IMG/VR virus record: IMGVR_UViG_3300017758_000091
Location: 1 to 27,520 of that record
Source: a virus
Reading direction: 5' to 3' (one strand)
Length of the DNA: 27,520 bases
Made by a program: the position numbers and the translations under genes
Notes under the pieces: model-generated
Databases searched by the model: none
What the model was told of the DNA's origin: nothing
Seen by the model: the letters and a program-made list of their open reading frames with translations, nothing else
Shown: positions 449 to 24,993 of the stretch, piece after piece
Position numbering within the stretch: position 1 is the first letter of the stretch
Layout: every line of letters starts with the position of its first letter

Positions 449-987
449 GAACGCCTTGTGGGTCTAGTATAAGGCTTTCGTTTTTGTATTTCTTTTCTTT
501 TAAGTAATCTTCTTTCAGCTAATAATTGAGATTTCTCAGCTTCCCATTTTAAGATACCCATTTTTTGTAGAGTTTCTTCAGTCCATATTTCAAATCTTAG
601 TCCATTTTTAGAACAAGCAATCTGAGCATTCTTCCATTTTTCAGCATTAATAGCAAACCTGGCAGTTTCTTCAATCCATCTTTTTGATTTTCTTGTAGGT
701 GATGCTGGTGCAACAGTTTCTTTTTTAGGTTTAACTTCAATAACTTTTATTACACCATCGTTAAATTTAATATAAAAATCAGGATAATATCTAGCTCTTT
801 TACCAGTCACAGGGTGTTGGTATGGTATTGCAATCTCTTCACTAGCCCATTCAAGGACTGCAGGATTGTCGTCACACCATTTCATTACGTTTCTTTCCCA
901 CATACTACGGTATGTAATGTTCTTTACATCACCCGTATATTTGTCAGGATTATTTAACGCTGCTAATTTTCCTTTGTAAGTCGGCAT
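445..987 (-). CDS. 4: Head completion nuclease-like protein, T4 gp4 family
   Basis: This 180-residue protein matches the T4 gp4 head completion protein (150 residues), which acts on filled heads before tail joining. The N-terminus has the family pattern KYTGDxxxITYRSxWE (residues 16-31), followed by the acidic IPY segment (54-56). Residues 68-88 read YPDF then EVKPKK, so D70 and E84/K86 fit a PD-(D/E)xK nuclease core like that of TnsA-type endonucleases. The C-terminal 50 residues are very basic and longer than in T4. The gene is a single - strand gene between + strand tail genes. It converges on the tape-measure gene with a 4-base stop overlap and diverges from gp48 across a 27-base gap. Identity is clear; DNA cleavage by this copy is inferred. 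Confidence 0.88.
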   Translation of the reverse strand: MPTYKGKLAALNNPDKYTGDVKNITYRSMWERNVMKWCDDNPAVLEWASEEIAIPYQHPVTGKRARYYPDFYIKFNDGVIKVIEVKPKKETVAPASPTRKSKRWIEETARFAINAEKWKNAQIACSKNGLRFEIWTEETLQKMGILKWEAEKSQLLAERRLLKRKEIQKRKPYTRPTRRS

Positions 988-995
988 AATAAATA
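988..995 (+). promoter_or_regulatory. T4-type late promoter octamer for the hub operon
   Basis: The sequence AATAAATA differs by one base from the T4 late promoter TATAAATA, which is read by the phage sigma factor gp55. It lies 19 bases before the gp48 ATG at 1015, leaving a short leader with an AGGA ribosome site at 1002-1005. The same octamer precedes other units in this window. The opposite strand has a weaker ATTAAATA (1007-1014) that could serve gp4. Confidence 0.6.
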
Positions 996-1014
996 CTCTA
1001 TAGGATTATTTAAT

Positions 1015-2082
1015 ATGCCAGAAAATTTTAAAGCCTTAAGATTTCCACAAGATTTGGGAACTAACAGTTCACCGAACTACATTACTTTTATGCCTGAAGA
1101 GTTATCTTATGAACCAACTAATTACGGCAATAAAGCAGATAGAGGTTCAGGTGGTTTATTCGGAAAATCAGACGGTGGTTCTGCTTTTGATATAGACCTA
1201 GGTGCAGGAAATCCATTTAAACAAATAGGTAAAGCTATTGGTGGCCAACTAGAATCTATTGCTGATGCAGCTGTAGATACAGTGAATGCAATTGGTAGTA
1301 TATTTGATGGTGGTTCATTATCAGCAAAAGCTACAAAGTTTGGTAAATTAGTAAATGGTAAAGTTAAAATAGGAGACTTTATATTATCATCTGGTATAAA
1401 ATCAGAAGCACCTCAAGTAAGACAACAAGGTTCAATATCATTATATTTACCAGATAGTTTAAATGCTACTACATCTGCAGATTATAGTCAAAAAGATATT
1501 GGTGCAATGGGAATGGAAGCAATCAAAGCTGCCAAGAAAGCTGGTGGCGGTAGTATAGCTGATGCTTTTAATCAGACAAAATCAGATTCTAAATTGGCAG
1601 AAGGTGTTTTAGCTGAAGTTGTAAGACAATCAGGACAAGTAGGAGATACAATTGCTATTGCAGAAGGACAAATAGTAAATCCATATTCATATCAAGTATT
1701 TGGCGGCATGGCTCATAGAACTTTTAATTATACATTTGATTTAGTCCCACGAAATTCAAGAGAAGCTGAAGAAGTTAAAAGAATTTGTGATATGTTTTTA
1801 TATTATATGCTACCATCTAAAGGTGGTGGAAGTGTAAACACTGGTAATGCTGGTGAACACTTTCTTAAAATGCCTTCACAATGGGACATAAAATACTATA
1901 GAAACGGTAATCTATTAACTCATCATCAACAACCTTTTAAATGTTTCTTATCATCTTGTGATATTCAATATGGTGGTGATGCTGAAAACTTTTTACATGA
2001 AGATGGTTCACCAGTAAAAACATCTTTAACATTAAGCTATATAGAAATAGAACCATTAATTCAAAACAAGGTGTCTGAATAA
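1015..2082 (+). CDS. 48: Baseplate tail-tube cap/initiator, T4 gp48 family
   Basis: The 355 residues are close to T4 gp48 (364), which sits between the baseplate hub and the first tail-tube ring. The diagnostic region is FGGxxxRTFxYTFDLVPR (about residues 225-245), equivalent to YGGxxxRTxxFTWDLTPR in T4, followed by a helix and a C-terminal beta segment ending in a Leu/Ile-rich strand (SYIEIEPLI). The middle holds IxLYLPDSL (about 140-150), like the ILLPRS segment of T4. The N-terminal third is Gly/Ala-rich and variable. It is the first gene of a coupled + operon; its TAA overlaps the ATG of gp53 (TAATG at 2080). No gp54 partner gene is seen in this window. Confidence 0.82.
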   Translation: MPENFKALRFPQDLGTNSSPNYITFMPEELSYEPTNYGNKADRGSGGLFGKSDGGSAFDIDLGAGNPFKQIGKAIGGQLESIADAAVDTVNAIGSIFDGGSLSAKATKFGKLVNGKVKIGDFILSSGIKSEAPQVRQQGSISLYLPDSLNATTSADYSQKDIGAMGMEAIKAAKKAGGGSIADAFNQTKSDSKLAEGVLAEVVRQSGQVGDTIAIAEGQIVNPYSYQVFGGMAHRTFNYTFDLVPRNSREAEEVKRICDMFLYYMLPSKGGGSVNTGNAGEHFLKMPSQWDIKYYRNGNLLTHHQQPFKCFLSSCDIQYGGDAENFLHEDGSPVKTSLTLSYIEIEPLIQNKVSE

Positions 2083-2735
2083 TGTACTTCAAACAATACA
2101 ATAGAATAGTATATGAATTTTCTGACGGTGTAAAAAGAGTTATGACTGATATGTCTATACGTCCTAAAATGAGAGATGAGATTACTACAAATTCTGATAA
2201 CTTTGAATTTTATTCTATCAAAGACGGAGATACACCAGAAAATTTAGCTTATGATTATTATTCTGATACCGGTAAACACTGGGCTATCATGCTTGCTAAT
2301 AATATAATGAGTATCTATAATGATTGGCCAAGAGACCAACAGCAACAAGATGAATTTTTATTTCAAAAATATAAAGTACAAACTGACAGTGATGGTGTTT
2401 CACAAACTCTTACAAAAGTACAAGTAATGGAATTCATACAGTTTGTAGGTACAACAGGTAATAATTTTAAAAGCTCTGTGACAGGAACAAGTGTTGTGAC
2501 TAAACCTAGACATTTTATAGATGCAAATAAAAAAGAATATTCTTATGATTCAATAGTAAATAATACAACAGGAAAAGATGCAAATGGTATAGGAATTACA
2601 TATCCTACAGTAGCTCCTGTGTCAATTCAAACACATGAAGAAGAGTTAAATGAAACAAAAAGAAATATTATTATTCCGACATCAAAAGTAGTAGACAAAT
2701 TGATTGACGAAATACAAGAGTATATAAATGGCTAG
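2082..2735 (+). CDS. 53: Baseplate wedge protein, T4 gp53 family
   Basis: This 217-residue protein (T4 gp53 is 196) is a wedge component that links wedges to the hub. The recognisable part is a LysM-like segment at about residues 43-80: YSIKDGDTPENLAYDYY followed by HWAIMLANNI, matching the T4 pattern YxIKGxPxPEELAxxxYxxxxxxWVLLxxN. A conserved NDW and a helix with repeated Gln follow. It carries one Asp-Ser-Asp (VQTDSDG, about residue 102), the only such site in the hub proteins. It starts in the stop of gp48 and overlaps gp27 by 8 bases, so all three are probably translated in a coupled way. Confidence 0.82.
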   Translation: MYFKQYNRIVYEFSDGVKRVMTDMSIRPKMRDEITTNSDNFEFYSIKDGDTPENLAYDYYSDTGKHWAIMLANNIMSIYNDWPRDQQQQDEFLFQKYKVQTDSDGVSQTLTKVQVMEFIQFVGTTGNNFKSSVTGTSVVTKPRHFIDANKKEYSYDSIVNNTTGKDANGIGITYPTVAPVSIQTHEEELNETKRNIIIPTSKVVDKLIDEIQEYING

Positions 2736-3915
2736 CGGAAAACAAACTGGTGCTTACGAACTAAAAAGCGCAAAAATAATTAGAGGTGGAGAAGCAGCTG
2801 ATATCACTATGATGGTATCAGAAATGAATATCTTTTCATCCATAGTTGATAGAACTATTATGGGTGAGTTTTTAATTACTGATGGTAGAAACATAATATC
2901 AGGTTTCCCTGTACAAGGTGGTGACCTATTTAAAGTACAAATAGATATTATGGGTCAAATAAGAGATTACACTTTAAGAATTACTAAAATAAAAGGTTTA
3001 TCTGATTTAGAAACTAGTAGGATGTATATTTTAGAGTGTATATCTGAATTTGCTTTCCAAGGTTTGCATCAAAAGTTTTCTCAATCATTTACTGGTCCAT
3101 TTAATGAAATTGCTTTAAAAATATTTCAAAAATATACAGACGAAAAATTTGGTGTATTTGAAGCTTCAAAAGGTAGTTCAACAGTTATTATTCCCAATTG
3201 GAGTCCTACAAGAGCTATAGGCTGGTTAGCATCAAATGCAGTTTCTACAACTGATGATATAAGATTTCGGTTCTTTCAAGACAGTAAAGGTCTATATAAC
3301 TTTATGCCTATTGAAAAAGCTTTAGATTTTTATAAAGATAATCCACCATTCACTTTTAAGTATAGAGCAAATAATTCTACTGATGGTATACCTAATGTGG
3401 AACAAGATTTATCAGCTATATCTGATTTAAAGTTTGGTCATTCTTATGATATGGCAAAAGCTTTAAGAGAAGGTTATTTAGTTGCCAGAGAATATGATGT
3501 TAGTTTAAAAGAAAAAACTCAAACTGTTCTTAATTGGAATTATCATAAAGAATTTGATAAAGCAAAATACTTAAATCCATTTCCACAATATTATAATCAA
3601 GATTATGGAATGGGCAGAATATATTTTTCTGCAAGTTCACAATATCAAAGTGACTTGTCTGGTTTAAAAAGGTCATCAGTCACAGGTTATAATCAATTAG
3701 TACAAATTACAGTTAAAGGTAATCCTGAAGTTGATATTGGACAAGTTGTACAATTAGATATACCAAATCCAGACCCTGCTGGTTCTAGAATGGGTGAAAA
3801 AGATAATATGTGGACAGGTAAATATTATGTCACAGCCAAAAGAGACTTTTATGCAGGTGATGAAGTTAAAATGGTAATGGACTGTGCTAAAGAAAGTTTA
3901 AAAGAGGAAGTATAG
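2728..3915 (+). CDS. 27: Baseplate central hub protein, T4 gp27 family
   Basis: At 395 residues it is almost the length of T4 gp27 (391), the trimeric ring that joins the tail tube to the gp5 spike. Matching features are an N-terminal beta domain ending in a GEFLITDG-type strand (about 46-54), the IPNWSPTRAIGWLASNAV segment (about 155-172; T4 has IPWTSTFENYLSYVREVAL), then RFRFFQDSKGLYNFMPI (about 180-196), equivalent to FVFVWQDIMGVNMMDY in T4. The C-terminal half has the second beta barrel with VKGNPEVDIGQVVQLDI. It is directly followed by the spike gene after one base, with a good ribosome site (GAGGAAG at 3904-3910). Confidence 0.85.
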   Translation: MASGKQTGAYELKSAKIIRGGEAADITMMVSEMNIFSSIVDRTIMGEFLITDGRNIISGFPVQGGDLFKVQIDIMGQIRDYTLRITKIKGLSDLETSRMYILECISEFAFQGLHQKFSQSFTGPFNEIALKIFQKYTDEKFGVFEASKGSSTVIIPNWSPTRAIGWLASNAVSTTDDIRFRFFQDSKGLYNFMPIEKALDFYKDNPPFTFKYRANNSTDGIPNVEQDLSAISDLKFGHSYDMAKALREGYLVAREYDVSLKEKTQTVLNWNYHKEFDKAKYLNPFPQYYNQDYGMGRIYFSASSQYQSDLSGLKRSSVTGYNQLVQITVKGNPEVDIGQVVQLDIPNPDPAGSRMGEKDNMWTGKYYVTAKRDFYAGDEVKMVMDCAKESLKEEV

Positions 3916-3916: not shown

Positions 3917-5197
3917 ATGTTAGACGGAAAAATGTTCTGGTTCACTGGCGTTGTTGAAGACAGAATAGACCCTATGAAGATGGGCAGAATAAAAGTAAGA
4001 GTACATGGTATTCATACTGATGATAAAACACTTTTACCTACTAAAGATTTACCTTGGTCTCAAGTAGTGATGCCTATTACGTCTGCATCATTAGCAGGTA
4101 TAGGTACATCAGCAACAGGTATTTTAAATGGTTCATGGGTTGTTGGTTATTTTATTGATGGTAGTGATATGCAAGAAAATATTATTCTTGGAACTTTACC
4201 TTCTACACCTTATGCAAAAAATCCTGAACTAGGATTTCATGACCCGAAAGGTGCACATCCTAGAAGAAGTGATGGTGTTGATACACCTGATTCAGCTCTT
4301 CAATCTTCATATGAAGCCCACCCATCATATGTTAATAAAGTAGACCAAAGACAAACAAAAGTAGAAACAGCAATACCACCATTCTTAAAAACTGTAAGTA
4401 TTGATGAAGAAGATGATGCTAAGTTTACAAGAAATACTTGGGATATGCCAGAAATAATGAAAGGTAATACACCAATATATCCATTCAATAAAGTGACAGA
4501 AACAGAATCTGGTCATGTATTTGAAATTGATGATACTAAAAATAATGAAAGAATATCTATGTATCACCAATCTGGTACTAATTATGAAATTCAAAATGAT
4601 GGTGATGTTGCTACTACTATTAGAAAAGATAACTACACAGTTATTTTTGGAAATGATAAGATTTATGTAAAAGGTAATGTAGATATTACTATTGATGGTG
4701 ATAAAAAAGAACTTGTAAAAGGCAATTATCATCTTGAAGTAGAAAAAGACTATACAATGAATGTAAAAGGCTCAAGAAACTCAGCGGTAGGTGGCAATGA
4801 ATTAATTGAAGTAGGTCAAGCATTTTCTAGCAATGTAAACGAAGACTATACTCAACGTGTAGGAGGCCATGAAATACGTATTGTAGACAAATCAAGGAAT
4901 ACAACAATTGGTGATTCTGAGGACCTTTCTGTGGCCACGAATATGAATGAAATTGTAATGGGTAAAAGAGATATGTTTACTTCCGCTATCCATACACAAA
5001 CAGTCACTGATAAATTAAATATATCAGCATTAGGAGACCTTACAGTAGGTACTAAAGCTAACCATATAGAAACAATTAAAGGTACACGTACAGAAACAAT
5101 TACTGGTGCAGTTAATGAACAATATGGTGATGGACAAATAACCAATGTCACAGGTGATGTTGATATTGATACAACTGGAAATATATTGTTAAACTAA
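3917..5197 (+). CDS. 5: Baseplate spike protein, gp5/VgrG-like, no lysozyme domain
   Basis: This 426-residue protein is the membrane-piercing spike under the hub. Residues 1-95 form the OB-fold of gp5 and VgrG: FxGVVEDRxDPxxxGRIKVRV, a PWSQVVMP segment and GSWVVGYFxDG. Residues 190-225 hold the conserved ESGHxFExDDT...HQSGTxxEI motif that opens the triple-stranded beta-helix. About 235-426 is the helix itself, built of short repeats with alternating Val/Ile and Gly-Asn turns (KGNxDITIxGD and so on). T4 gp5 is 575 residues with a lysozyme domain between OB-fold and helix; here that space (about 100-190) is a Pro- and Asp-rich linker with no catalytic Glu/Asp/Thr pattern. The spike is therefore a mechanical needle, and cell-wall cleavage must come from another protein. 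Confidence 0.86.
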   Translation: MLDGKMFWFTGVVEDRIDPMKMGRIKVRVHGIHTDDKTLLPTKDLPWSQVVMPITSASLAGIGTSATGILNGSWVVGYFIDGSDMQENIILGTLPSTPYAKNPELGFHDPKGAHPRRSDGVDTPDSALQSSYEAHPSYVNKVDQRQTKVETAIPPFLKTVSIDEEDDAKFTRNTWDMPEIMKGNTPIYPFNKVTETESGHVFEIDDTKNNERISMYHQSGTNYEIQNDGDVATTIRKDNYTVIFGNDKIYVKGNVDITIDGDKKELVKGNYHLEVEKDYTMNVKGSRNSAVGGNELIEVGQAFSSNVNEDYTQRVGGHEIRIVDKSRNTTIGDSEDLSVATNMNEIVMGKRDMFTSAIHTQTVTDKLNISALGDLTVGTKANHIETIKGTRTETITGAVNEQYGDGQITNVTGDVDIDTTGNILLN

Positions 5198-5631
5198 TGA
5201 ATGAACTTTTAAATACACAAGTACTTAGTATATGGACCATTGCTGGCCCGTGGGCTGCTGTGATTGGCTCGATTATTGTAGGTATGTGGATTAAAGACTG
5301 GGCAACTGGATTTGCAAAAGGTGCTAGATTTAGAATGAGCAAGTCTTTTAATGAAGGCGATAAAGTAATTTTAGAAGGCAAACCAGCTCTTATTATAAAG
5401 ATAGGATTTACTGAAACTGTTTTTGGTGTTTATAATGATGATGGCTATACTTGGAGATTTGTACAAAATGAAAGAATACCTTTTCTTAAATTAGAAAAGA
5501 TTGTTGATAAAGATTTACACCAAGACACTGACCAAGAAAAAGCTCAAAAGATTGTTGATGCATTACAAAATGCAGAGATTGAAAAAAACAAAGCTGATAT
5601 CGAGAACATTAAAAATGGGAACAAAAGTTAA
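5197..5631 (+). CDS. Small MscS-like membrane protein
   Basis: The 144 residues have one hydrophobic segment (about 11-30), then an amphipathic Gly/Ala stretch (WATGFAKGARF, about 35-45), then a compact beta domain (about 47-92) with FNEGDKVxLEGKPALIIKIGF and a W-R-F-V-Q-N-E-R-I end. This follows MscS channels closely: the pore-lining third helix with Gly/Ala spacing, FRxGDxVxxxGxxGxVxxI, and the closing VPNGxI strand. The remaining 50 residues are charged and probably coiled-coil. Full MscS has three helices and about 286 residues, so this would be a minimal version. It starts in the stop codon of the spike gene (TAATG at 5195). The fold is inferred from pattern; channel activity is unproven, and a membrane anchor with an Sm-like beta domain is an alternative. 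Confidence 0.55.
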   Translation: MNELLNTQVLSIWTIAGPWAAVIGSIIVGMWIKDWATGFAKGARFRMSKSFNEGDKVILEGKPALIIKIGFTETVFGVYNDDGYTWRFVQNERIPFLKLEKIVDKDLHQDTDQEKAQKIVDALQNAEIEKNKADIENIKNGNKS

Positions 5632-6169
5632 ATTACCAAAATTAGCTATGGCATATACACAATTGCCTGAGCCTGAACAACATACTCAAGAAAAAATAGA
5701 GTATGTAATAGAGCAAACAAAAACTCGTAATAAGTTTTGGGAAGCATCCGTAGCAGCTCATGATGAAGACCCATCATTTGCTATCAAAGAATATTGTAAA
5801 GAAAATAATATAGATTTTCCTGCTAGAGAAGTTTATGAATTAGAAGACCAGGCTGTACAAACTATAAAGTTTTGGAAAAGAAAATTTGCTAAATTAAGAC
5901 CCTATGCAGCTGCAGAACATTATGGATTAAATGTGGATAGATTACCCAGTAAAACAAATAAGACTAAATCTTATCCAAGTGGACATTCAACCCAAGGATA
6001 TTTAGCTGGACTTTATGTATCTAGTATATACCCATCTCATAGAGTAGGTATTATGGAAGCTGGATTAGAATGTGGTATTGGTAGAATTAAAGCTGGCTTT
6101 CACTATTTGAATGACCATGAAGCTGGTATGAATTTAGCTACACAATTATTTAACTTGGTAAAGACATGA
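5615..6169 (+). CDS. PAP2 / class A acid phosphatase-like protein
   Basis: All three PAP2 active-site motifs are present. With the start at 5615 they are K88-x6-R95-P96, P121-S-G-H124, and R157-x5-H163-x3-D167. The surroundings (SYPSGHSTxGY, GRIKAGFHY) resemble class A nonspecific acid phosphatases such as PhoN, which hydrolyse phosphate monoesters through a phospho-histidine (H163). There is no signal peptide and no membrane segment, unlike lipid-phosphate PAP2 enzymes, so a soluble cytoplasmic enzyme is likely. The frame is open from an upstream ATG at 5501, but that would overlap the previous gene by 131 bases and adds 38 basic residues without family resemblance, so 5615 (17-base overlap, 184 residues) is preferred. 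5648 is another possible start. The substrate is unknown. Confidence 0.8.
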   Translation: MGTKVKLPKLAMAYTQLPEPEQHTQEKIEYVIEQTKTRNKFWEASVAAHDEDPSFAIKEYCKENNIDFPAREVYELEDQAVQTIKFWKRKFAKLRPYAAAEHYGLNVDRLPSKTNKTKSYPSGHSTQGYLAGLYVSSIYPSHRVGIMEAGLECGIGRIKAGFHYLNDHEAGMNLATQLFNLVKT

Positions 6170-6771
6170 AAAAATTTACTGACATATTAGAAGAAGAAGC
6201 TGGTAAAGGACTTACAGTCTTTGATATTGATGACACTTTGTTTAAAACTTCTGCTAAAGTAAAAGTTAAAAATAAAAAAACAGGTGATGTGAAAGAGCTT
6301 CCACCAGTACAATATAATAAGTACAAATTAAAGAAAGATGAAGAGTGGGATTTTGGTGAATTTAAAAATTCAAAAATGTTTCAGCAAACTGCTATGCCAA
6401 TTGGACGTATGGTAAAAAAAGCAAAAGCAATTATAAGAAATGCTACTAGAAAAGGTTCAAAAGTAATTATAATTACAGCTCGATCTGATATGGATGATAG
6501 AGATTTATTTTTAGATACTTTTAGAGCTCATGGTATAGATATAGACAAAGTACATGTAGAAAGAGCTGGTAATCTAGGTGGTAGTGCCGCTAGTGCTAAG
6601 AAAAAGATTTTTCAAAAGTACTTAGGTTCAGGTGACTTTGAGAGAGTACGATTTTTTGATGATGATAAAAATAACTTAAAAAGCTTTCTTTCACTAAAGA
6701 AAGAATATGATAAAGTAGACTTTTCTGCTTTTCAAGTACAAAACAACGGTTCCGTTAGGAGTGTAAGATAA
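6166..6771 (+). CDS. HAD-superfamily phosphohydrolase-like protein
   Basis: The four HAD motifs can be read in 201 residues: motif I FDIDDTLF (nucleophile D20, general acid D22, T24), motif II IIITARS (T104), a lysine cluster K145-K147 for motif III, and motif IV FFDDDKNN (D165-D167). Between motifs I and II is a basic insert of about 75 residues that could act as a small cap. The protein is soluble, without a signal peptide. HAD proteins of this size occur in T4-like phages; substrates are usually unknown but include nucleotide and nucleic-acid end phosphates. The ATG overlaps the stop of the PAP2 gene (ATGA), and the stop overlaps the PAAR gene (TAATG), so it is made together with another phosphatase and spike parts. 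Confidence 0.8.
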   Translation: MKKFTDILEEEAGKGLTVFDIDDTLFKTSAKVKVKNKKTGDVKELPPVQYNKYKLKKDEEWDFGEFKNSKMFQQTAMPIGRMVKKAKAIIRNATRKGSKVIIITARSDMDDRDLFLDTFRAHGIDIDKVHVERAGNLGGSAASAKKKIFQKYLGSGDFERVRFFDDDKNNLKSFLSLKKEYDKVDFSAFQVQNNGSVRSVR

Positions 6772-7073
6772 TGAGCTTAGCTGTCACTAGAAAAGATGAT
6801 AAACATGTAGGACATGCAAGTCCTACACCAAGTCCATTTCATCAAACTGCTTATACAGGTGGTTCTTTAAATGTATTTGCTAATGGTAAAAATGTAATAC
6901 GTGGAGAAAGTACAGATTCAACTAGTTGTGGAGACCCTGCAGTTGGTGGATCAAGTAAAGTTTTAGTAAATGGTAAAAAGGTACATAGGAAAACTGATGC
7001 AACTGGTGGTCATGGTAGTTGGGTTGCAAATGCTTCTAATGAAGGTTCACCAGATGTATTTGCAGGTGGGTAA
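6771..7073 (+). CDS. PAAR-like spike tip protein (gp5.4-like)
   Basis: This 100-residue protein fits the PAAR family, which caps the tip of gp5/VgrG spikes with a small metal-binding cone (T4 gp5.4 is 97 residues). Typical features are a His-rich start (H12, H15), GHASPTPSPFHQTAY, paired VxxNGKxVxR strands (NVFANGKNVIRGES and KVLVNGKKVHRK) and a Gly-rich GGHGSW end. H15, C53, H72 and H81 are candidate ligands; PAAR proteins use three His and one Cys for a metal ion, but which residues do so here is a guess. It lies in the same coupled operon as the gp5-like spike, separated by three accessory genes. Both junctions are TAATG. Confidence 0.8.
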   Translation: MSLAVTRKDDKHVGHASPTPSPFHQTAYTGGSLNVFANGKNVIRGESTDSTSCGDPAVGGSSKVLVNGKKVHRKTDATGGHGSWVANASNEGSPDVFAGG

Positions 7074-8263
7074 TGAGTAAGTGTGGAGCAAATGAAGCTT
7101 TAGGAGCTTTAACTGAAAAAACAAAGGATATGGCAGACACTTTAAAAGATAGTGTTGATTTGGATAAGTTGCAAGAATTTAAAGATAAAGCTGAATCTAT
7201 CAAAGGTGATATTAAAGATAAGTTGGTTTCACAAATACCTAAACCAAAAAATCTACAAGTAGAATTAGAAAAAATAAAAGGTTTAAAAGAAGGATTAGCC
7301 GTAGGTGCTGCAGTACTTGCAATAGAAAAAGATTTTGGTAAAGCTTTAGGTGCAGGTGTTTTAACTGGTGCTCTTAAAAATGTATTAGACCCAGTACTCC
7401 AAGGAGCTGCTGGAATTGCAGCTGGAGCTGAAGATGCTATATCAGATGCTTTGGGTGGTAAGTCGTTTGATATCTGTAAAAATGTACCTAATGTAGAATT
7501 AGATAAAGACGGTGAACCAGTTGAAAAGGCATTGGTAGAAGCTAAACCAAATGAAGCAGCTGAAAAACCCAAAGAAGTAGAAAAGACTGTAGAAGATTCT
7601 TCTACAAAAACTTCACTGGGTGGTGGAAAATATACACAATCTGATTATTATGTTGCAAAAGCAGAAATTAGTTTGGCATATGATAAAGTAGAAAAAGGCG
7701 TAACAAAATTTATAAAGAAAGATAAACTTGGTTTGACTAAAAAAAGTAAAGATGTAAAAAAATATTATAAGAAAGTCAAAAAAAAGTACGCAGCAGCTAA
7801 AGTAATAGCAGAGAAAAGTGGTTATAAAAAATTTTTTAATATGTGGCAAGATGGTCAGTGGCCAGAAGATGTATTTCCATTTGAAGAATATAGAACATAT
7901 CTATCACTTTATCAAGATTATGAATACACCGATACGTTAACATCTGAACTTATTGATGGTTCCTCTGCCATGGAAAAAGGTTTAGCAAGTAAAAATATTT
8001 TTGGTGCACATCCTTTCTTTGATAATCCTGATTGGTATGATAAAACAAAATATCCAGGTTTTTTTGTATACAGATTTTATGATGAATTATATTTACCAAT
8101 AAAAAGAGATAGTAGAGAATATGGTTTATACACAGCAGATAAAGCAATTGGTGATGCTCACGGAAAATTGATGGATGAACTATTGGCTTTTTGGCAAAGA
8201 GAAGATATACAAGAACAGTTAGCCATACTTGCAGACTATGAAACAGCAAATGGTTTAGTTTAA
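7073..8263 (+). CDS. Uncharacterised PAAR-linked protein, probable virion or delivered protein
   Basis: I do not recognise a function for this 396-residue protein. Residues 1-75 are charged and helical. Residues 80-135 are a Gly/Ala-rich, mildly hydrophobic helical stretch, and a CKNVPNVEL segment (about 144-152) follows. An acidic Pro/Glu/Lys linker covers about 160-185. About 200-260 is very basic (many Lys-Lys pairs), and the C-terminal 130 residues are aromatic-rich (WQDGQWPEDVFPFEEY, FGAHPFFDNPDWYDK). It starts in the stop of the PAAR gene. In contractile systems the gene after PAAR often encodes a spike-associated or delivered protein, so a similar role is inferred here. I recall similar CxxxPNVE-type proteins beside spike genes in marine myoviruses but cannot name one. 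It is the last gene of the hub operon. Confidence 0.6.
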   Translation: MSKCGANEALGALTEKTKDMADTLKDSVDLDKLQEFKDKAESIKGDIKDKLVSQIPKPKNLQVELEKIKGLKEGLAVGAAVLAIEKDFGKALGAGVLTGALKNVLDPVLQGAAGIAAGAEDAISDALGGKSFDICKNVPNVELDKDGEPVEKALVEAKPNEAAEKPKEVEKTVEDSSTKTSLGGGKYTQSDYYVAKAEISLAYDKVEKGVTKFIKKDKLGLTKKSKDVKKYYKKVKKKYAAAKVIAEKSGYKKFFNMWQDGQWPEDVFPFEEYRTYLSLYQDYEYTDTLTSELIDGSSAMEKGLASKNIFGAHPFFDNPDWYDKTKYPGFFVYRFYDELYLPIKRDSREYGLYTADKAIGDAHGKLMDELLAFWQREDIQEQLAILADYETANGLV

Positions 8264-8280
8264 TAAATCTGATTTATAGG

Positions 8281-8288
8281 AATAAATA
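8281..8288 (+). promoter_or_regulatory. T4-type late promoter octamer for the lysis cassette
   Basis: AATAAATA lies in the 43-base gap between the hub operon and the lysis genes, 18 bases before the ATG at 8307, with a GAGG ribosome site (8293-8296) close behind. The spacing equals that at 24986 before the DUF4815 gene. This suggests late expression of the lysis genes from their own promoter. Confidence 0.55.
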
Positions 8289-8306
8289 AACTGAGGTTAT
8301 ATTATT

Positions 8307-8483
8307 ATGAATATATTTAAAACAATTTGGAGGATAGTCGTTCCTCCTAAGGTAAAGCAAGTTTCAGAATTAAAAGCAATGACGAAACTTGAGCTTGAAC
8401 AATATGCACGTCAATTTGATTATGAAGTCGACCGAAGACAAACTAAAGACAAAATCATAAAACAAGTTGCGAAGCTTAAATAG
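8307..8483 (+). CDS. Small SAP/HeH-like protein, 58 residues
   Basis: This short reading frame begins ATG AAT ATA and ends TAG at 8481-8483. It encodes MNIFKTIWRIVVPPKVKQ, then a helix-turn-helix-like unit with MTKLELEQYARQFDYEVDRR and KDKIIKQVAKL. The second part has the spacing of small SAP, HeH or Rho-N type units (LxxLxxxARxxxxxxDRRxxKxxIIxxI), which are common as short phage proteins and sometimes bind nucleic acid. The first 12 residues are hydrophobic and could touch a membrane. A GAGG site lies 10 bases before the start, and the next gene begins 11 bases after the stop, so it is part of the lysis transcript. Function is unknown. Confidence 0.7.
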   Translation: MNIFKTIWRIVVPPKVKQVSELKAMTKLELEQYARQFDYEVDRRQTKDKIIKQVAKLK

Positions 8484-8494
8484 GAAGGTAAACT

Positions 8495-8944
8495 ATGTTA
8501 ACATTATTATCAACATTTCTTGGATTTGGTACGTCTTTTGTTCCTAAAATTCTAGACTTTTTCCAAGATAAAAAAGACAAAGCACATGAAATAGAAGTCA
8601 TGGCTATGCAAATGGAGCGTGAAGAAAAACTAGCTACTTATAAAGCTGACGCTATGATGCAAGCTGCTGAAACACAAAGAGATTCTCAACTTTTAGTACA
8701 TGATACTGAAATGGGTAAAGGTGCAGCTCAATGGATTACTAATTTGCGTTCTTCAGTTAGACCAGTTATTACATATTTGTTTTTTGCAATATTCTTCTTT
8801 GTAGAAGGAGTTGCAGCTTATGTAGTACTAACACAAGGTGGAGATATAGAAGCAATTACAAATGCATTATGGTCTGAAGAAACTAGGTCTATATTTGCAG
8901 CAATTGTAGCATTTTGGTTTGGTTCAAGAGCAATTAAAAAATAA
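8495..8944 (+). CDS. Holin, GTA-type three-helix family
   Basis: This 149-residue protein resembles the holin-3TM family described for gene transfer agents and many marine phages. It has an N-terminal hydrophobic segment (about 2-20), a long charged helical region (25-75), then SSVRPVITYLFFAIFFF (about 85-101) as a membrane helix and a last one ending AAIVAFWFGSRAIKK (about 134-149). The R-P-V-x-x-Y-L-F and FWFGSRA signatures are typical. Holins collect in the inner membrane and open it at a set time so that the endolysin reaches the wall. A strong ribosome site (AGGAAGG at 8482-8488, 6 bases from ATG) precedes it, and the lysozyme gene follows two genes later. Confidence 0.82.
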   Translation: MLTLLSTFLGFGTSFVPKILDFFQDKKDKAHEIEVMAMQMEREEKLATYKADAMMQAAETQRDSQLLVHDTEMGKGAAQWITNLRSSVRPVITYLFFAIFFFVEGVAAYVVLTQGGDIEAITNALWSEETRSIFAAIVAFWFGSRAIKK

Positions 8945-8955
8945 AGGAGTAAATT

Positions 8956-9165
8956 ATGAGTGAAGCGAAAAAGCCAGAGGCTGAGCTAAACATCCGTGAC
9001 ATAGCGGATAGTATTAAAATTATAGACGTTTGCGTAAAGCGAGGAGCATTTGATGGCGTGGAAATGGAACCTGTGGGGAAGGTCAGAAACAGACTTGAAG
9101 CCTTCGTCAAAGCCTACACAGAACAAAACAAACCAGATGAGCAATCCAACAAAGACAAGCAATAA
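8956..9165 (+). CDS. Small conserved lysis-cassette protein of unknown function
   Basis: The 69 residues are soluble, with a core NIRDIADSIKIIDVCVKRGAFDGVEM and then a helix VGKVRNRLEAFVKAY. Proteins with a similar xIIDVCxxRGAFxGxExxxVGxxxxRLxxFL pattern are common in marine phages beside lysis or structural genes, but I know of no function. The C-terminus is a charged Gln/Asn/Lys tail. It has an excellent ribosome site (AAGGAG at 8944-8949) that overlaps the stop of the holin gene. The lysozyme start at 9137 lies inside its 3' end. It is not a spanin: there is no lipoprotein signal or membrane helix. Confidence 0.75.
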   Translation: MSEAKKPEAELNIRDIADSIKIIDVCVKRGAFDGVEMEPVGKVRNRLEAFVKAYTEQNKPDEQSNKDKQ

Positions 9166-9619
9166 TTGTATTAAGATGATTAAACACCATGAAGGTGTTA
9201 GATATCAGCCTTATCAAGACCCCATTGGTTTATGGACAGTTGGAGTTGGACATTTAATTGGTAATGGTAAATCTTTACCAAAAGAATGGAATAAGACATT
9301 TACCTCAGAAGAAGTTGATGACATTTTAAAAAAAGACCTTGCAAGGTTTGAAAGTGGTGTCAATACATTAATTCCTATTACAAGACTTACACAAAATCAG
9401 TTTGATGCTTTAGTATCTTTTTCTTTTAATGTTGGCTTAGGTAATCTACAAGCATCCACACTCAGACAAAAATTAAATCGTGGTGATTATGAAGGTGCAG
9501 CAAATGAGTTTCCTAAATGGAGAAAAGCTGGTGGTAAAGTTTTAAATGGACTTGTAAGAAGAAGAGCTGATGAAAAAGCTTTGTTTATGTCTGATGTTAT
9601 TCACGCAATAGGTTATTAA
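9137..9619 (+). CDS. e: T4-type lysozyme / endolysin (GH24)
   Basis: This enzyme cleaves the glycan strands of peptidoglycan during lysis. With the start at 9137 the catalytic triad is E19-x8-D28-x5-T34 (HHEG, YQDPIG, LWTVGVGH), the same spacing as E11, D20 and T26 of T4 lysozyme. The C-terminal lobe has QFDALVSFSFNVGLGNL and GLVRRRADEKALF, as in the family. Its 160 residues are close to T4 (164). The frame is open further upstream to 9050, but that would add residues read out of frame from the previous gene, so 9137 (29-base overlap) is chosen; 9176 is too close to the catalytic Glu. There is no signal peptide, so export depends on the holin. Its stop overlaps that of the convergent Fe-S gene. 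Confidence 0.9.
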   Translation: MSNPTKTSNNCIKMIKHHEGVRYQPYQDPIGLWTVGVGHLIGNGKSLPKEWNKTFTSEEVDDILKKDLARFESGVNTLIPITRLTQNQFDALVSFSFNVGLGNLQASTLRQKLNRGDYEGAANEFPKWRKAGGKVLNGLVRRRADEKALFMSDVIHAIGY

Positions 9620-9921
9620 ACAGAAAAACTTTCACCACATCCACAAGACATAGATGCATTAGGATTTCTAATAACAAGTTGTGAGCCAGAAAATTCTTGC
9701 ACATAATCTACCTCTGAACCTAATATATGTAATTCAGCTATTTTATCAACAACTAATACATCTTCAATTAGTACACCATCATCTTCACTATTAGTAAAAT
9801 CCCAAGTGTATTCAAATCCTGCACATCCTCCACCTTTGATAGAAAGAAATGCATACTTTTTTTCTTGAGTAGCTAATTTTTCTTTAATGTAATGCTTGGC
9901 TGTAGGAGAGATACTAAGCAA
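9616..9921 (-). CDS. A-type iron-sulfur cluster carrier (IscA/ErpA/HesB-like)
   Basis: A-type carriers bind a [2Fe-2S] or [4Fe-4S] cluster and pass it to apoproteins. The family's three cysteines are present: C33 in GGGCAGFEY and C93-G-C95 in SCGCGESF, numbered from the chosen start, with the usual spacing of about 60. The strand LGSEVDYVQEFSGSQLVIRNPNA matches the family's DYxxxLxGxxFxxxNPNA. The chosen start is a TTG at 9921 with AGGAAAG four bases before it; this gives 101 residues, near IscA (107), and begins at the family's usual first strand. A GTG at 9951 would add 10 residues without resemblance and a longer overlap. It overlaps the stop of the tail-fibre gene upstream by 8 bases, so it is expressed with the fibres. 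Phage-borne carriers have been reported in marine viromes. Confidence 0.85.
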   Translation of the reverse strand: MLSISPTAKHYIKEKLATQEKKYAFLSIKGGGCAGFEYTWDFTNSEDDGVLIEDVLVVDKIAELHILGSEVDYVQEFSGSQLVIRNPNASMSCGCGESFSV

Positions 9922-10492
9922 AAGTCTTTCCTGTAAATTGTGCTGTTCCACCGGTATTTTCTATTGTAAATGTATTAAATGAAGATACAGTTGTACCACC
10001 GAGTGTGAAGTTAGCTGTTGTCAAATTTGTAAATGTAGACTTACCTGTAGAAGTAAGTGTAGAACCAGAGTTCATAGTTAAATTAGGTATGGTGACATTT
10101 GAGTTAAATGTAATTGTTCCAGAAGACTTGACATTAAGTGTTCCTTCAACATCTACATTTCCTCTGAGATATGTTTTACCTATTTGATTTGTTGTACCAT
10201 AGTTTGTCCATACATCATCAGAATCAGTACCATAGAATATTGCAGTACCATTAAAACTATCTGAATCAGAACCAAGAAAAATACCACCCTGTTTTATATC
10301 AATAGTAGCACCAGTAAATACTGCATTTCCTACAACACCTATATTACCATTGAATATAGAATTACCTGTGACTTCTAAACCAGGTAATGTGATGCTTTGA
10401 GGATTTTCAAAACCTGTTAAATCACCAGCATCATTAAATGTTAATGAACTGATTATATCTGCGTGTTTTCTTGTTTTACTCTTCTGTGGCAT
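9914..10492 (-). CDS. Tail-fibre-like structural protein, 192 residues
   Basis: The protein begins with MPQKSKTRKHADIIS, a basic tag shared with three other proteins in this block. The rest is low in aromatic residues and made of short beta repeats with Gly-Asn turns (TGNSIFNGNIGVVGNAVFTG, GNVDVEGTLNV, STGKSTFTNL), typical of phage fibre shafts or beta-solenoids. Two Asp-Ser-Asp sites occur (about residues 75 and 89). There is no enzyme motif. It is the last fibre gene of the - strand block, and its end overlaps the Fe-S carrier gene. Before its ATG stands ATTAAATA-GAAT, like the arrangement before the 703-residue protein. Fibre identity is inferred from composition, repeats and neighbours. 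Confidence 0.65.
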   Translation of the reverse strand: MPQKSKTRKHADIISSLTFNDAGDLTGFENPQSITLPGLEVTGNSIFNGNIGVVGNAVFTGATIDIKQGGIFLGSDSDSFNGTAIFYGTDSDDVWTNYGTTNQIGKTYLRGNVDVEGTLNVKSSGTITFNSNVTIPNLTMNSGSTLTSTGKSTFTNLTTANFTLGGTTVSSFNTFTIENTGGTAQFTGKTFA

Positions 10493-10505
10493 ATTCTATT
10501 TAATC

Positions 10506-11645
10506 CTAACTTGGGTCTATAAACTTTATTGTAGCAACTGTTGAACCAGCTGCATTTATTATAGTTAAGTTATACTTACTAGGTATAGAAACGTTTGTGG
10601 AGCCTATAGTGAATCCATCACTATCTACAGTCATTATATTATGACCACTACCAGAATGGTTTGCTGTTAGTGTGCCATCTGAATCTCTAATATCAGATAC
10701 ACTTAATGATGAATTTCTTACTATTGTTCCACTTGAATTATGTATAGGTGCAAACTTAAATGTGCCAGTTCCTGTTAATGTAGCACCTGTCATATTTACA
10801 TATGATTTATGTCCTACTTGTTTTCCTTGTATAAATGAGCTCATTGATTGTTCATTTTGAGCACTCATAGTTTTAGAAGAACCTGTATTTCCTGAACTAT
10901 TATATTCAAATGCAAAACCATTATCTGAATCTGAATCATGTCCTAAAAATCCTAAATTCACATCAGTTGATTTGAATAAAGTTCTACCTTGTAAGTCTAA
11001 AGTACCAAAACTTGTGAATACAGTGTTTTCAGAATCATGTACATTACCAGCAGTTTTAGGATATCCGAATTGCAATGGTGTATTTTCACCTGATACTCTT
11101 GCAATATTCATAGTTTGACCACCATGTTTTCTACCAAACATGATACCACCACGAGTTTTAAACCTACTTATTTTTCTACCTTCAAGATAAGCAATTGCTT
11201 GTGAACCTGTTCCATGTCCAAAAATCATATCAGAATCTAAAGGATATTTTCTATGGCGGTTTGTAAAGTCATCTAACAAATAACCACCTATATCTTCTCC
11301 AAGAAAGAAGTTTCCTTTAAAAGTTGTAAGTGAATTATCTGAGTCACTACCAATGATTGCATCTTGAAATGGTCTAGCAGATGGTAGATTAGTAGATGAA
11401 AATCTGTTAAAGTGGTCTGAATCTGGTCTGTTATTTAGTGGGAATAATAGATTTCTTGATGTTCTTGTAAAATGTGTACGGTCACCATCAGTACCTACAT
11501 TAATTGTACCTAGTTTTAATGATGTATTATTTTTATTACCGAAAAGTATTGCATCAGAGTCAGTTGATAAAAAGAACTTTCCACCAGGACCGTTTGGGTT
11601 TACCGCATTTGCGATTTTTCTAGTTTTTGAAATTTTATCTGACAT
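10506..11645 (-). CDS. Tail-fibre-like structural protein with DSD motifs, 379 residues
   Basis: It starts with MSDKISKTRKIANAV, the same KTR tag as its neighbours. The body is Gly, Ser, Thr and Asn-rich and predicted to be beta. Eight Asp-Ser-Asp/Glu sites are spread along it, for example STDSDAI (27-33), RPDSDHF, GSDSDNS, PLDSDM, GHDSDSDNG and TVDSDGF. The C-terminus (NLTIINAAGSTVATIKF) has alternating hydrophobic residues like a fibre tip strand. No known receptor-binding or hydrolase domain is visible. It lies 6 bases after the end of the 134-residue gene upstream, with AGGAT before its start, and 13 bases before the 192-residue gene, so the three form one unit. Function as a fibre or fibre-associated protein is inferred. 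Confidence 0.62.
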   Translation of the reverse strand: MSDKISKTRKIANAVNPNGPGGKFFLSTDSDAILFGNKNNTSLKLGTINVGTDGDRTHFTRTSRNLLFPLNNRPDSDHFNRFSSTNLPSARPFQDAIIGSDSDNSLTTFKGNFFLGEDIGGYLLDDFTNRHRKYPLDSDMIFGHGTGSQAIAYLEGRKISRFKTRGGIMFGRKHGGQTMNIARVSGENTPLQFGYPKTAGNVHDSENTVFTSFGTLDLQGRTLFKSTDVNLGFLGHDSDSDNGFAFEYNSSGNTGSSKTMSAQNEQSMSSFIQGKQVGHKSYVNMTGATLTGTGTFKFAPIHNSSGTIVRNSSLSVSDIRDSDGTLTANHSGSGHNIMTVDSDGFTIGSTNVSIPSKYNLTIINAAGSTVATIKFIDPS

Positions 11646-11651
11646 ATCATC

Positions 11652-12056
11652 CTAAAAATTAAAGATTCTTGGCAAGTCACTCTTATTACCATTTACTAAA
11701 TCTACAGGTCCATTAAAGGCATCTCTTACAGCACCTGTTGAAGCACCACCGCCTCTTACAAGACCACTTCCCCACGGTCTAATTTGTGTATTTCTTGTAT
11801 TGTTTTCTATTCCACCACCAGAACCAAATCCTCCAGCACCTAATATATTTCCGTTAACTACTACTTTAATATAGTTAGCATTTGGAAATTCAGGAATTGT
11901 GAGAGCTGCTACACCAGGTAATGATGTAATATTGATACCTTCAGGCACTTCAATTACTACGGATGTAGCATTGTTTCTTTCTTGTTCTGAGGGTTCAAGC
12001 AGAAAACCTACTTGGTCTGAAGTTATTTTTTTATAGTATTGAGTAAGTACATGCAT
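11652..12056 (-). CDS. Glycine-rich small protein in the fibre block (possible adhesin)
   Basis: The chosen start (ATG at 12054-12056) follows the stop of the previous gene by one base and gives 134 residues. A longer frame reaches 12128 but lies inside the upstream gene and looks like read-through of it. Residues 1-70 form a beta domain (VVIEVPEGINI, LPGVAALTIPEF, YIKVVVNG). Residues 75-85 are GAGGFGSGGG and about 100-110 WGSGLVRGGG, so there are two polyglycine loops. Glycine-rich loops framing variable segments occur in receptor-binding adhesins such as gp38 of T4-like phages, but there is no further similarity I can point to. It lacks both the KTR tag and Asp-Ser-Asp motifs found in most of its neighbours. 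Confidence 0.6.
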   Translation of the reverse strand: MHVLTQYYKKITSDQVGFLLEPSEQERNNATSVVIEVPEGINITSLPGVAALTIPEFPNANYIKVVVNGNILGAGGFGSGGGIENNTRNTQIRPWGSGLVRGGGASTGAVRDAFNGPVDLVNGNKSDLPRIFNF

Positions 12057-12057
12057 T

Positions 12058-12498
12058 TTACCCTGCCGATGCTTCAGAGAAGAACCATTTACTTCCGTCA
12101 AAAGTTCCTGAAGCCATCTTTGCAGCATTGCCTAATGATGTTCCTTTAGCACTGGTTCCCCAATCTATTGTTAGTGTACCGTTAGAGACTATGGATAATT
12201 GTGAACCAGCTATCCAACCTGCAGTAGGTACTGTGACAGTGCCCACGCCTGTATGAATTACTGTTGTGACAAAACTTCCAGCAGTGACACTATCATTTGA
12301 TGTTAAACTTTGTACACTTCCTAGAGAGCCAGTCATAGATAAACTATTAAACGCTCCATCACCAGCACTTACATTTCCACTTACTGTCAAAGTGTTTGAT
12401 GTAATACCTTGTGTAATGATATTCGTTATATTAGCATTCGCATCTTGTTGTACTAAATTTGGTAATTCTGCGAATCTTCTAGTTTTTGACTTTGCCAT
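12058..12498 (-). CDS. Short tail-fibre-like protein, 146 residues
   Basis: The protein begins MAKSKTRRFAELPNLV, another copy of the KTR tag, followed by QDANANITNIITQGITSNTLTVSGNVSAG, a repeat-like beta stretch of the kind found in marine phage fibres. The last 60 residues form a compact Gly/Trp-containing domain (AGWIAGSQLSIVSNGTLTI, IDWGTSAKGTS, GTFDGSKWFFSEA), which resembles the small C-terminal tip domains of phage fibres. It contains no Asp-Ser-Asp. The ribosome site is strong (AGGAG, five bases before ATG), and a late-promoter octamer stands upstream. It probably builds a short fibre or decorates the baseplate; receptor binding is an inference. Confidence 0.65.
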   Translation of the reverse strand: MAKSKTRRFAELPNLVQQDANANITNIITQGITSNTLTVSGNVSAGDGAFNSLSMTGSLGSVQSLTSNDSVTAGSFVTTVIHTGVGTVTVPTAGWIAGSQLSIVSNGTLTIDWGTSAKGTSLGNAAKMASGTFDGSKWFFSEASAG

Positions 12499-12512
12499 AT
12501 TTTCTCCTACTA

Positions 12513-12520
12513 TATTTATT
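12513..12520 (-). promoter_or_regulatory. T4-type late promoter octamer before a short fibre gene
   Basis: On the - strand this reads AATAAATA, 14 bases before the ATG at 12498, followed by an AGGAG ribosome site. It overlaps the last codons of the 703-residue gene upstream. The spacing would give a leader of about nine bases. Confidence 0.5.
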
Positions 12521-14630
12521 ATCCAGACTGTCGCTTAAACCAGACTTGTACATTCATTTGTATTGGGTCAATTGGATTAGAACTAGCATCCCACGTACGT
12601 ACTCTGATTGCTCTATTGTTTGGATTTGCAATTAATGGTTTACCACCAAAGACATCTATTGTTTTACCAGTTTCTGAATCGGCTCCTGGACCAGGTGCTA
12701 CTGCATTTGCGCCTTGAGCATCTATTGATGAAAATATAGGTTGACCCTGTGGTGCACAAGTTGACACTGCCATGGACATATAGAATCCATTTGTATCATT
12801 TACTGGTACTACTTCTGAATCTAATAAGAAGAAATAAACACCTTCTGAATGTCTTGAATATTTTAGTTGATCTGAATCAAATCCATAAGTAGCTCTATCA
12901 ATAATCTTATTAGGATTAGGACCATTATCTGAATCAAATGAAACTCTCATCCAAGCTGATGTTAGTGGTGTTTCTTTAATTTGGTCAGAGAATTGATGTG
13001 TCCATTGACCACCAGAATATACTAGTGCTTCACCTATGCTTGGTTGTTGACCATCTACAGCCTCATCAACATTTGATAATTGACCTAAAGTACTTACTCC
13101 AGCTGTTGGACCACTAAATGAGTATATAGCTACAAAGTCATTAACATTAAGTCTAGATGGGAACAATATATCATTTCCATTTACTTGATATTCTAAGACA
13201 GGTGTTTGTGATAATAATACACCATTTAAAAATACTAGTACATTGAATGGGTCATTTGATGTTTGTAATACTGGTGAACAATCTACTAAACCTGTAGCAA
13301 ATCCTGGGTGGTCTGAATCATTTACAGTAAATGTATGTTCTAATGTTTGGAATGCTTCGGAAGGTAATCTGTTTCCACCTAATTGGTTTGATACGTTTCT
13401 TATCCATACAGCTGATAATTCATCTGAATCTTTTAAGAATTGGTCTGAATCAAATGCTATTACTCTAGAAGTTTTATATGTATTTACTTGGTCAGAATCT
13501 GAATCCCAGAAATAAAAGTCTCCTTGTTTTTGAGATAAGTTAATACCATTTAAGAAGATAAGAGGATTACCACCAACTCTTGAAACAATTAAATCAGAAT
13601 CACTGTAAATATCTGAATCAATCATTCTAAATGTTTGGTGTGTACCATTAGCACTTAAATCAGCTCTTCTTGATTTACGCAGAACTACAAAGTCTGAGTC
13701 GGCAAATCTAAAGTTCTTATAAAAGTGAGCTATAGTTTCATCAATAGGTGATATAACTGATACTTCATCATTTGCTTTTAAACTACCATAAAACTTAATC
13801 GCATCTGCTGGACCTGATACTACTTGGTCTACATCTTTTGTTGTGACATTTGCAAGTATCTTATAATCAATAATTGCATACTTGTCGGAATCTGAATCTC
13901 TTGTAGATGTACCAGCACCAGTTGGAGATTGACCATCACCAAATGCATCTGAATCCACTGGCTGTAAGTGACCATTTACAAATACTAAAGCATTTGCATT
14001 TGAAATTACTTTTGAAAAACCTATTTTAGTATCTGAATCTGTAATAGCTTGTGGTGAAACCTGTGCTGATTGAAAGTCAATAGTAAAATTACCAGTTGCA
14101 TCAGGGTCTTGTGGTTCATACTTATTACCTGTCCATCTTAAATACTGTCCAACTGTAGGTCCTTTATCAGCATTCATATCGCTCATAAGCCTTGTAGCCA
14201 TCTCAGCTTGTAATTGTGCTAATTTAGGATGATAATTACTATTTACTTTATCTAAATCATTTCTACCTTTTGCAATTACTGCATCTACAACTGCATCTAT
14301 TAAATCACTATCAAAGTGTTGTCCTGCACGTAAATTGACTGTTGCTGCTGTATCTACTGCTACATTTCTATTAGCATCTTTTTGTACTTTATCAAATACA
14401 AGTTTATCTTTAATTTTTGTAGAGTGTCTGGTTTCAATTGTAGGATTTGCTTGGTCAGGATTTACAACAAATATATCACTGTCTTTTCCAGAGTTATAAC
14501 TAGAATTATCTCTTTTTACAGATAATGTGGTAAATGTTTCAATTGTATTATCACTATCAATACGTGATTTATTTCCATCTACAACAAAACCAGCTCCTAG
14601 TTTTGATAAATCTCTTGTCTTAGTTCCCAT
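12519..14630 (-). CDS. Large tail-fibre-like protein with FLNG modules and DSD motifs, 703 residues
   Basis: The N-terminus MGTKTRDLSKLGAGF carries the KTR tag. Three beta modules opened by a hydrophobic strand and NG turn are visible: LVFVNGHLQ (215-223), LIFLNGINL (357-365) and LVFLNGVLL (465-473). Such FLNG modules recur in phage fibres. Two short segments, GQYLRWTGNKYEP (about 161-173) and GEALVYSGGQW (about 533-543), look like the L-x-Y/W-x-G-x-x-W motif common near fibre repeats. There are about 15 separate Asp-Ser-Asp sites plus two Asp-Ser-Glu. The C-terminus (residues 600-703) is a beta-rich domain without DSD after 653. No enzyme domain is visible. Its ATG follows the stop of the 768-residue gene by 12 bases. 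A role as a main fibre subunit is likely. Confidence 0.7.
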   Translation of the reverse strand: MGTKTRDLSKLGAGFVVDGNKSRIDSDNTIETFTTLSVKRDNSSYNSGKDSDIFVVNPDQANPTIETRHSTKIKDKLVFDKVQKDANRNVAVDTAATVNLRAGQHFDSDLIDAVVDAVIAKGRNDLDKVNSNYHPKLAQLQAEMATRLMSDMNADKGPTVGQYLRWTGNKYEPQDPDATGNFTIDFQSAQVSPQAITDSDTKIGFSKVISNANALVFVNGHLQPVDSDAFGDGQSPTGAGTSTRDSDSDKYAIIDYKILANVTTKDVDQVVSGPADAIKFYGSLKANDEVSVISPIDETIAHFYKNFRFADSDFVVLRKSRRADLSANGTHQTFRMIDSDIYSDSDLIVSRVGGNPLIFLNGINLSQKQGDFYFWDSDSDQVNTYKTSRVIAFDSDQFLKDSDELSAVWIRNVSNQLGGNRLPSEAFQTLEHTFTVNDSDHPGFATGLVDCSPVLQTSNDPFNVLVFLNGVLLSQTPVLEYQVNGNDILFPSRLNVNDFVAIYSFSGPTAGVSTLGQLSNVDEAVDGQQPSIGEALVYSGGQWTHQFSDQIKETPLTSAWMRVSFDSDNGPNPNKIIDRATYGFDSDQLKYSRHSEGVYFFLLDSEVVPVNDTNGFYMSMAVSTCAPQGQPIFSSIDAQGANAVAPGPGADSETGKTIDVFGGKPLIANPNNRAIRVRTWDASSNPIDPIQMNVQVWFKRQSG
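13212..13988 (-). repeat. Three FLNG beta modules inside the 703-residue fibre protein
   Basis: Modules start at 13988, 13562 and 13238 (reading the - strand), each with a strand of the form L-(V/I)-F-(V/L)-N-G followed by a turn and one or two further strands. A fourth copy (VAVFLNGVLQ) lies near the C-terminus of the next protein upstream, at about 14809-14838. In modules 1 and 2 the turn region carries DSDSD, while module 3 has VNGND at what looks like the same place. Confidence 0.6.
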
Positions 14631-14634
14631 ATTC

Positions 14635-24987: not shown

Positions 24988-24993
24988 TAAATA
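24986..24993 (+). promoter_or_regulatory. T4-type late promoter octamer before the DUF4815 gene
   Basis: AATAAATA overlaps the stop codon of gp8 and ends 18 bases before the ATG at 25012, with GAAGAG (24998-25003) as ribosome site. The octamer-to-ATG distance equals that in front of the lysis cassette. Confidence 0.55.

Follow-up and report, generated by a model that had tools for sequence, protein, structure and literature searches.

Three genes lie between the gp5-like central spike gene and the PAAR spike tip gene of an uncultivated marine T4-like phage. They are fixed at this site within the phage's clade, each is under purifying selection, and relatives of each occur singly, unlinked to gp5, in other marine phages. 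On balance, we lean toward reading the trio as a whole as accessory cargo of a late operon, comprising an MscS-like protein of the lysis phase and two cytosolic phosphatases.

Results

Gene order and junctions

We analyzed a 27.5-kb viral record in IMG/VR (27,520 nt, hereafter the window). Its spike gene (3917–5197, + strand) encodes a gp5-like protein with an OB domain and a Gp5 trimerisation domain (PF06714, 7.5e-23; PF22178, 1.1e-13; PHROG 430, 2.8e-83), in which neither Pfam nor PHROG searches detected a lysozyme domain. Three ORFs follow on the + strand, encoding a 144-aa single-TM MscS-like protein (5197–5631), a 184-aa soluble protein resembling PAP2 and class A acid phosphatases (5615–6169) and a 201-aa HAD-IIIB phosphatase (6166–6771). 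The next gene on this strand encodes the gp5.4-like PAAR spike tip (6771–7073; PF05488, 4.5e-7). Read from the sequence, the gp5/MscS-like and HAD/PAAR junctions are both TAATG with a 1-nt overlap, the MscS-like and PAP2 genes overlap by 17 nt, and the PAP2/HAD junction is ATGA with a 4-nt overlap. The initial annotation's description of three genes joined by stop/start overlaps between spike and tip is thus borne out. A longer open frame for the PAP2 gene was set aside, the likely start being the ATG at 5615.

Downstream on the + strand, a fast-evolving 396-aa protein of unassigned function (7073–8263; dN/dS 0.34–0.47) is coupled to PAAR by another TAATG. Beyond it lie genes for a 3-TM holin-like protein (8495–8944, +; weak GTA_holin_3TM match, PHROG 6637) and a T4-type lysozyme/endolysin (9050–9619, +; PF00959, 2e-45), whose listed ORF opens at TTG and whose real start may be further in. 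We also considered a foreign base composition for the trio and rejected it, as the GC content matches that of the neighbouring genes.

The trio is fixed in one clade

When we looked for the same three genes at this site in other marine phages, as the initial annotation had proposed, we found them in 10 further IMG/VR contigs (some of them near-identical pairs), with the same order and the same overlaps. Within the clade, dN/dS ranged from 0.02 to 0.20 for the MscS-like gene, from 0.06 to 0.25 for PAP2 and from 0.06 to 0.11 for HAD. Every trio gene is therefore under purifying selection. For one pair of contigs (L003 and L004), dS was 0.18 for PAP2, compared to 1.02 for the MscS-like gene and 0.70 for gp5, which suggests that PAP2 recombined separately from these two genes.

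Because a search with the trio's own genes would favour contigs that carry them, we used the holin as an anchor. All holin-anchored relatives at ≥90% identity carry the trio (9/9), which is fixed within the window clade. The next relative, contig L303 (62%), lacks it; the gene order there is gp53, gp27-like, gp5, a 65-aa ORF, PAAR, a 700-aa protein, holin, a 153-aa protein and lysozyme. Because L303 has both the spike-holin-lysozyme operon and the site without the trio, we regard the trio as accessory. The end of gp5 ahead of the next start, TTGAACTAATG, is common to L303 and several trio carriers.

Other features of these records deserve mention. In L303, the 700-aa protein takes the place of the 396-aa protein that follows PAAR in the window. 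DSD and DSE tripeptides are strongly enriched in the window's tail-fibre and baseplate proteins (10506–16949 on the − strand and 19232–27519 on the + strand), where the nine affected ORFs hold 110 copies and shuffled sequences would give about 5. They are mostly coded GATTCAGAT and are rare or absent in the window's remaining proteins. The L303 fibre gene (7315–10938) shows a visible enrichment too.

Probable late expression with the spike

The initial annotation supposed that the trio is expressed late, together with the spike. In a 152-kb relative (G001), copies of the T4-type late motif TATAAATA are over-represented immediately upstream of ORFs (8/15 within 60 nt, p=1.8e-8). Between 80 and 105 kb, the motif occurs just once in the forward direction, at 83,534, ahead of the whole gene block. 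Together with the gene overlaps and common direction, this mapping makes late co-expression with the spike likely, and we infer late co-transcription of the trio with the spike and lysis genes from a single promoter. No late promoter was found inside the window.

As a separate observation, TATAAATA is absent from the window (1–27520), where 4.9 copies would be expected by chance, which fits avoidance of the late-promoter motif inside operons. G001 also carries a run of curli-like CsgF, CsgG and fibre-repeat genes (locus L200, 70415–74861) and no tRNA genes; curli genes in marine phages have already been described (PMC9599517, PMC9004378).

The first gene encodes an MscS-like protein

The first trio protein has an N-terminal TM helix, a core resembling MscS TM3b and beta-domain (approximately residues 25–103) and a charged C-terminal tail. 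It has no Pfam match itself; two relatives match the MscS beta-domain PF00924 at 15–16 bits, compared to a cutoff of 20.2. Foldseek searches with its AlphaFold model (pLDDT 55, a low confidence) returned mostly the MscS family (MscS, MSL10 and YnaI; E ~0.01, TM ~0.33). As the AlphaFold models of both this and the PAP2 protein are of low confidence, we take the fold matches as supporting evidence only. The 144-aa protein has a single hydrophobic segment and ends in a charged helical tail; the TM1/TM2 sensor helices and the C-terminal alpha/beta cage are lacking. We therefore call it MscS-like rather than a proven member of the MscS family, and given the sub-threshold Pfam matches, the pLDDT of the model and the missing TM1, TM2 and cage, any channel function is a prediction only.

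The family comprises at least 286 loci in IMG/VR, and none was found in 50,697 isolate records; the three members scanned against PHROG had no match. Likewise, tblastn of the MscS-like and HAD proteins against isolates and a direct nucleotide search of isolates with the window gave no match. A bacterial origin was rejected, since the genome scan produced one match, to a contig that is phage-like although assigned to a Neomarinimicrobiota MAG.

Neighbours of the MscS-like gene point to a probable role in lysis

In four contigs (L180, L181, L183 and L187), the MscS-like gene directly follows an M15 endolysin gene with a 1-nt overlap, and in most other T4-like loci it overlaps or abuts a gene for a 2-TM protein of PHROG 10198. 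In L191, it belongs to a complete cassette that runs GH108 endolysin, i-spanin, o-spanin, TM protein, MscS-like protein and 2-TM protein. This cassette (4409–6788) sits on a 335-kb contig that is filed under a Neomarinimicrobiota MAG and is phage-like in the 12 kb that we read. Adjacency of the MscS-like gene to endolysin, holin or spanin genes recurs in separate lineages, counted as raw neighbourhoods that include related contigs. L150 is an exception, its MscS-like gene lying by a small terminase gene and an SNase gene instead of lysis genes. The PHROG 10198 protein, which in vibriophage nt-1 has no annotated endolysin adjoining it, is a candidate rather than a proven holin.

Relatives of the other two genes show looser associations. 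HAD relatives lie 1.3–3.3 kb from a lysozyme gene or, in L091–L093, 0.6 kb from an Rz-like spanin gene, and the L111 PAP2 gene lies 0.6 kb from a spanin gene; these distances are raw values, and the related contigs are not independent. The L111 locus (508–3649) is unusual in that the PAP2 domain is fused into a 463-aa protein, near the Rz-like spanin and a class 3 lipase. We consider the lysis neighbourhood of the HAD and PAP2 relatives suggestive and that of the MscS-like gene stronger. The nearness of the holin and lysozyme genes to the trio in the window's own clade was discounted as evidence, given that this spike-lysis operon is also present in L303, where the trio is missing.

The initial annotation had offered a role at either entry or lysis. 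For the MscS-like gene, the lysis half gains support from its neighbours in other phages, not from the spike; for entry, we found no evidence. In our searches of the literature, no account of an MscS-like phage protein in lysis turned up. We propose that the protein most likely inserts its single helix into the host inner membrane and oligomerises via its beta-domain. During the lysis phase it would then serve as a small pore, a tension valve or a holin partner, tuning membrane permeability or the timing of lysis.

Two phosphatases without signal-like segments by hydropathy

The PAP2 protein matches PF01569 above the family cutoff (E=1.3e-10), and an alignment of 6 sequences shows the motifs K88-x6-R95P96, PSGH 121–124 and R157-x5-H163-x3-D167 to be invariant. 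Comparison with the acid phosphatases in PDB entries 1iw8 and 1d2t gave values of 6e-8 to 1e-7, and tblastn against isolates returned distant partial matches only.

The window's HAD protein falls just under the cutoff for Acid_phosphat_B, the HAD-IIIB family (PF03767, E=2.2e-5), and matches PHROG 415 at 8.7e-12. Each of these profiles is matched by 14/14 HAD members, the best PF03767 value being 6.9e-10. Residues D20/D22, T104, K145 and D165/D166, which make up the DxDxT, T, K and DD motifs, are invariant in the 14 sequences.

By hydropathy, neither protein has a signal peptide-like or TM segment, and at the PAP2 N-terminus the maximum 19-residue hydropathy is below 0. This disfavours membrane-lipid enzymes and makes extracellular phosphate scavenging unlikely, and the phosphate recovery in phosphate-poor water that the initial annotation entertained finds no positive support. 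Most likely, PAP2 and HAD would be cytosolic phosphomonoesterases acting late in infection on nucleotides or 3′-phosphate ends.

A salvage reading can also be framed around these enzymes: SNase, PAP2 and HAD would degrade and dephosphorylate host nucleic acid to yield phosphate and nucleosides in poor water, and the MscS-like gene would be no more than a neighbour. Two phosphatase families with intact motifs, an SNase gene that occupies the slot in L006–L008 and lies beside the MscS-like gene in L150, and the existence of phage phosphorus-acquisition genes (PMC10987575) all agree with it. However, the window's own slot has no SNase gene, enzymes expressed late would come late to the supply of nucleotide pools, and the hydropathy result counts against any extracellular step. 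We consider this explanation doubtful.

The HAD protein could instead serve nucleic-acid end repair as a stand-alone 3′-phosphatase comparable to the phosphatase half of T4 PseT, in which case PAP2 would be unrelated. PHROG 415, which all HAD members match, is annotated as polynucleotide kinase, and T4 pseT adjoins the spanin genes pseT.2 and pseT.3, recalling the spanin gene near HAD in L091–L093. Yet profile similarity to PseT is weak, at an HHalign probability of 13%, and we rejected HAD as a PseT fragment. The T4 pairing of kinase and phosphatase is absent, the 201-aa protein corresponding to the phosphatase part only, and Pfam prefers a HAD-IIIB acid phosphatase. End repair therefore strikes us as improbable.

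The genes occur independently, and the interval is variable

Elsewhere, the three genes are found apart. A 170-kb record (G005) has gp5 at 43.9 kb and an MscS-like gene at 132 kb, 88 kb away, with no HAD or PAP2. In a 137-kb record (G012), 117 kb of the linear sequence separates gp5 (2.4 kb) from HAD (119 kb), with no MscS-like gene or PAP2. In G015, HAD (6.7 kb) is 21 kb away from PAP2 (28 kb), and relatives of PAP2 (L106) and of the MscS-like gene (L150) occur in the terminase gene region of other contigs. Near 79 other gp5 loci, none of the three genes was present within the fetched stretch (0/79). Since the records are fragments or of uncertain completeness, these absences are provisional.

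A joint role for the three genes, as first suggested, is accordingly not borne out. The initial annotation held that independent occurrence at unrelated sites in relatives would indicate a chance insertion. Such occurrence is largely what we see, and it argues against a joint system; chance insertion does not follow, as the trio is fixed in the clade.

The gp5-PAAR interval itself appears permissive. In T4, 5.1, segC and 5.3 lie between genes 5 and 5.4; a single gene occupies the interval in RB49, Vibrio phage D479 and Aeromonas phage Ahp1, and in Melnitz a PAAR-like gene directly follows gp5. The contrast drawn earlier with T4 is correct in that T4 lacks such genes there, but it misleads as to novelty, because T4 and several of its relatives also have genes in the interval. 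Single-sequence search gave no PAAR for most of the nearby T4-like gp5 loci, so that occupancy outside annotated phages is only partly known.

Two further observations concern this slot. An SNase gene follows HAD at L201 (G001, 94739–95140) and in L006 (2829–3230), and the same type of SNase follows the MscS-like gene beside the small terminase in L150. Phages that are otherwise near-identical can differ in which of two PAAR sequence types they carry (L009, 7601–7897; L010, 6527–6829), with the flanking genes unchanged.

The location of the trio invites comparison with type VI secretion, whose VgrG and PAAR are the counterparts of gp5 and PAAR and in whose operons effector or adaptor genes are common. 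The products of genes lying between gp5 and PAAR might then be loaded on the spike and delivered into the host at infection, as in T6SS VgrG-effector-PAAR operons (spike loading is described in PMC7324665). The SNase, the phosphatases and the swapping PAAR types resemble VgrG-operon variability. Against this, the same genes occur far from any gp5 or PAAR in relatives, a TM protein is a poor cargo, Pfam found no adaptor domain and no PAAR or gp5 extension, and PAAR types change while the trio stays. We regard spike delivery as very unlikely, and virion packaging has no positive support. That the genes are passengers of benefit to nobody, inserted by chance, is hardly credible: they do occur independently at other sites and the interval does take various genes, but the same-site trio recurs in the 10 contigs under purifying selection (dN/dS well below 1 for each gene) and is present in every closely related holin-anchored contig.

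Discussion

We favor the reading that three independently travelling genes settled in a permissive gp5-PAAR (gp5.4) interval in one uncultivated marine T4-like clade. There they would be maintained as a run of genes with coupled translation and be expressed late, together with the spike, holin and lysozyme. On this reading the trio consists of independently mobile late genes fixed in the slot, and the MscS-like product is most likely an inner-membrane protein of the lysis phase.

How uncultivated ocean phages control lysis is poorly understood. The MscS-like family, which has hundreds of IMG/VR members and recurs among endolysins and spanins, offers a concrete candidate for a new type of lysis regulator. 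A bolder proposal, which we put forward as speculative and rather unlikely, is that these proteins form a new, widespread class of marine-phage lysis proteins: one-helix MscS relatives, tension-sensing or pore-forming, that set lysis timing and are absent from the isolate records searched. The trio also documents a T4-like spike/tip interval gaining accessory genes with the core operon unchanged.

Comparison with known systems

Like the MscS family (PF00924), the phage protein has a TM helix followed by a putative beta-domain-like core with the pattern F.EGD.V.L.G. It differs in being phage-encoded and only 144 aa long, in having one TM segment and no TM1, TM2 or cage, and in scoring below the Pfam cutoff. 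The PAP2 protein shares all three catalytic motifs with the class A acid phosphatases (PhoN/PhoC, PAP2 fold; 1d2t, 1iw8), with which its C-terminal half aligns. In contrast to them, it is 184 aa long, carries G at the S position of motif 3, has an N-terminal region of its own and, by hydropathy, no signal peptide-like segment. The HAD protein carries the DxDxT, T, K and DD motifs of the HAD-IIIB acid phosphatases (AphA, class B; PF03767), again with no signal peptide-like segment by hydropathy, and unlike the T4 PseT 3′-phosphatase, to which it is weakly similar, it has no kinase domain.

Marine phage lysis cassettes such as those of L191 and L180 combine endolysin, spanins and a 2-TM protein with a gene of the MscS-like family, whereas PAP2 and HAD are missing from them and gp5 does not adjoin. 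The closest counterpart of the site is the interval between T4 genes 5 and 5.4. Its genes are others, with no MscS-like, PAP2 or HAD gene among them, but there as in the window, variable small genes occupy the space between spike and tip.
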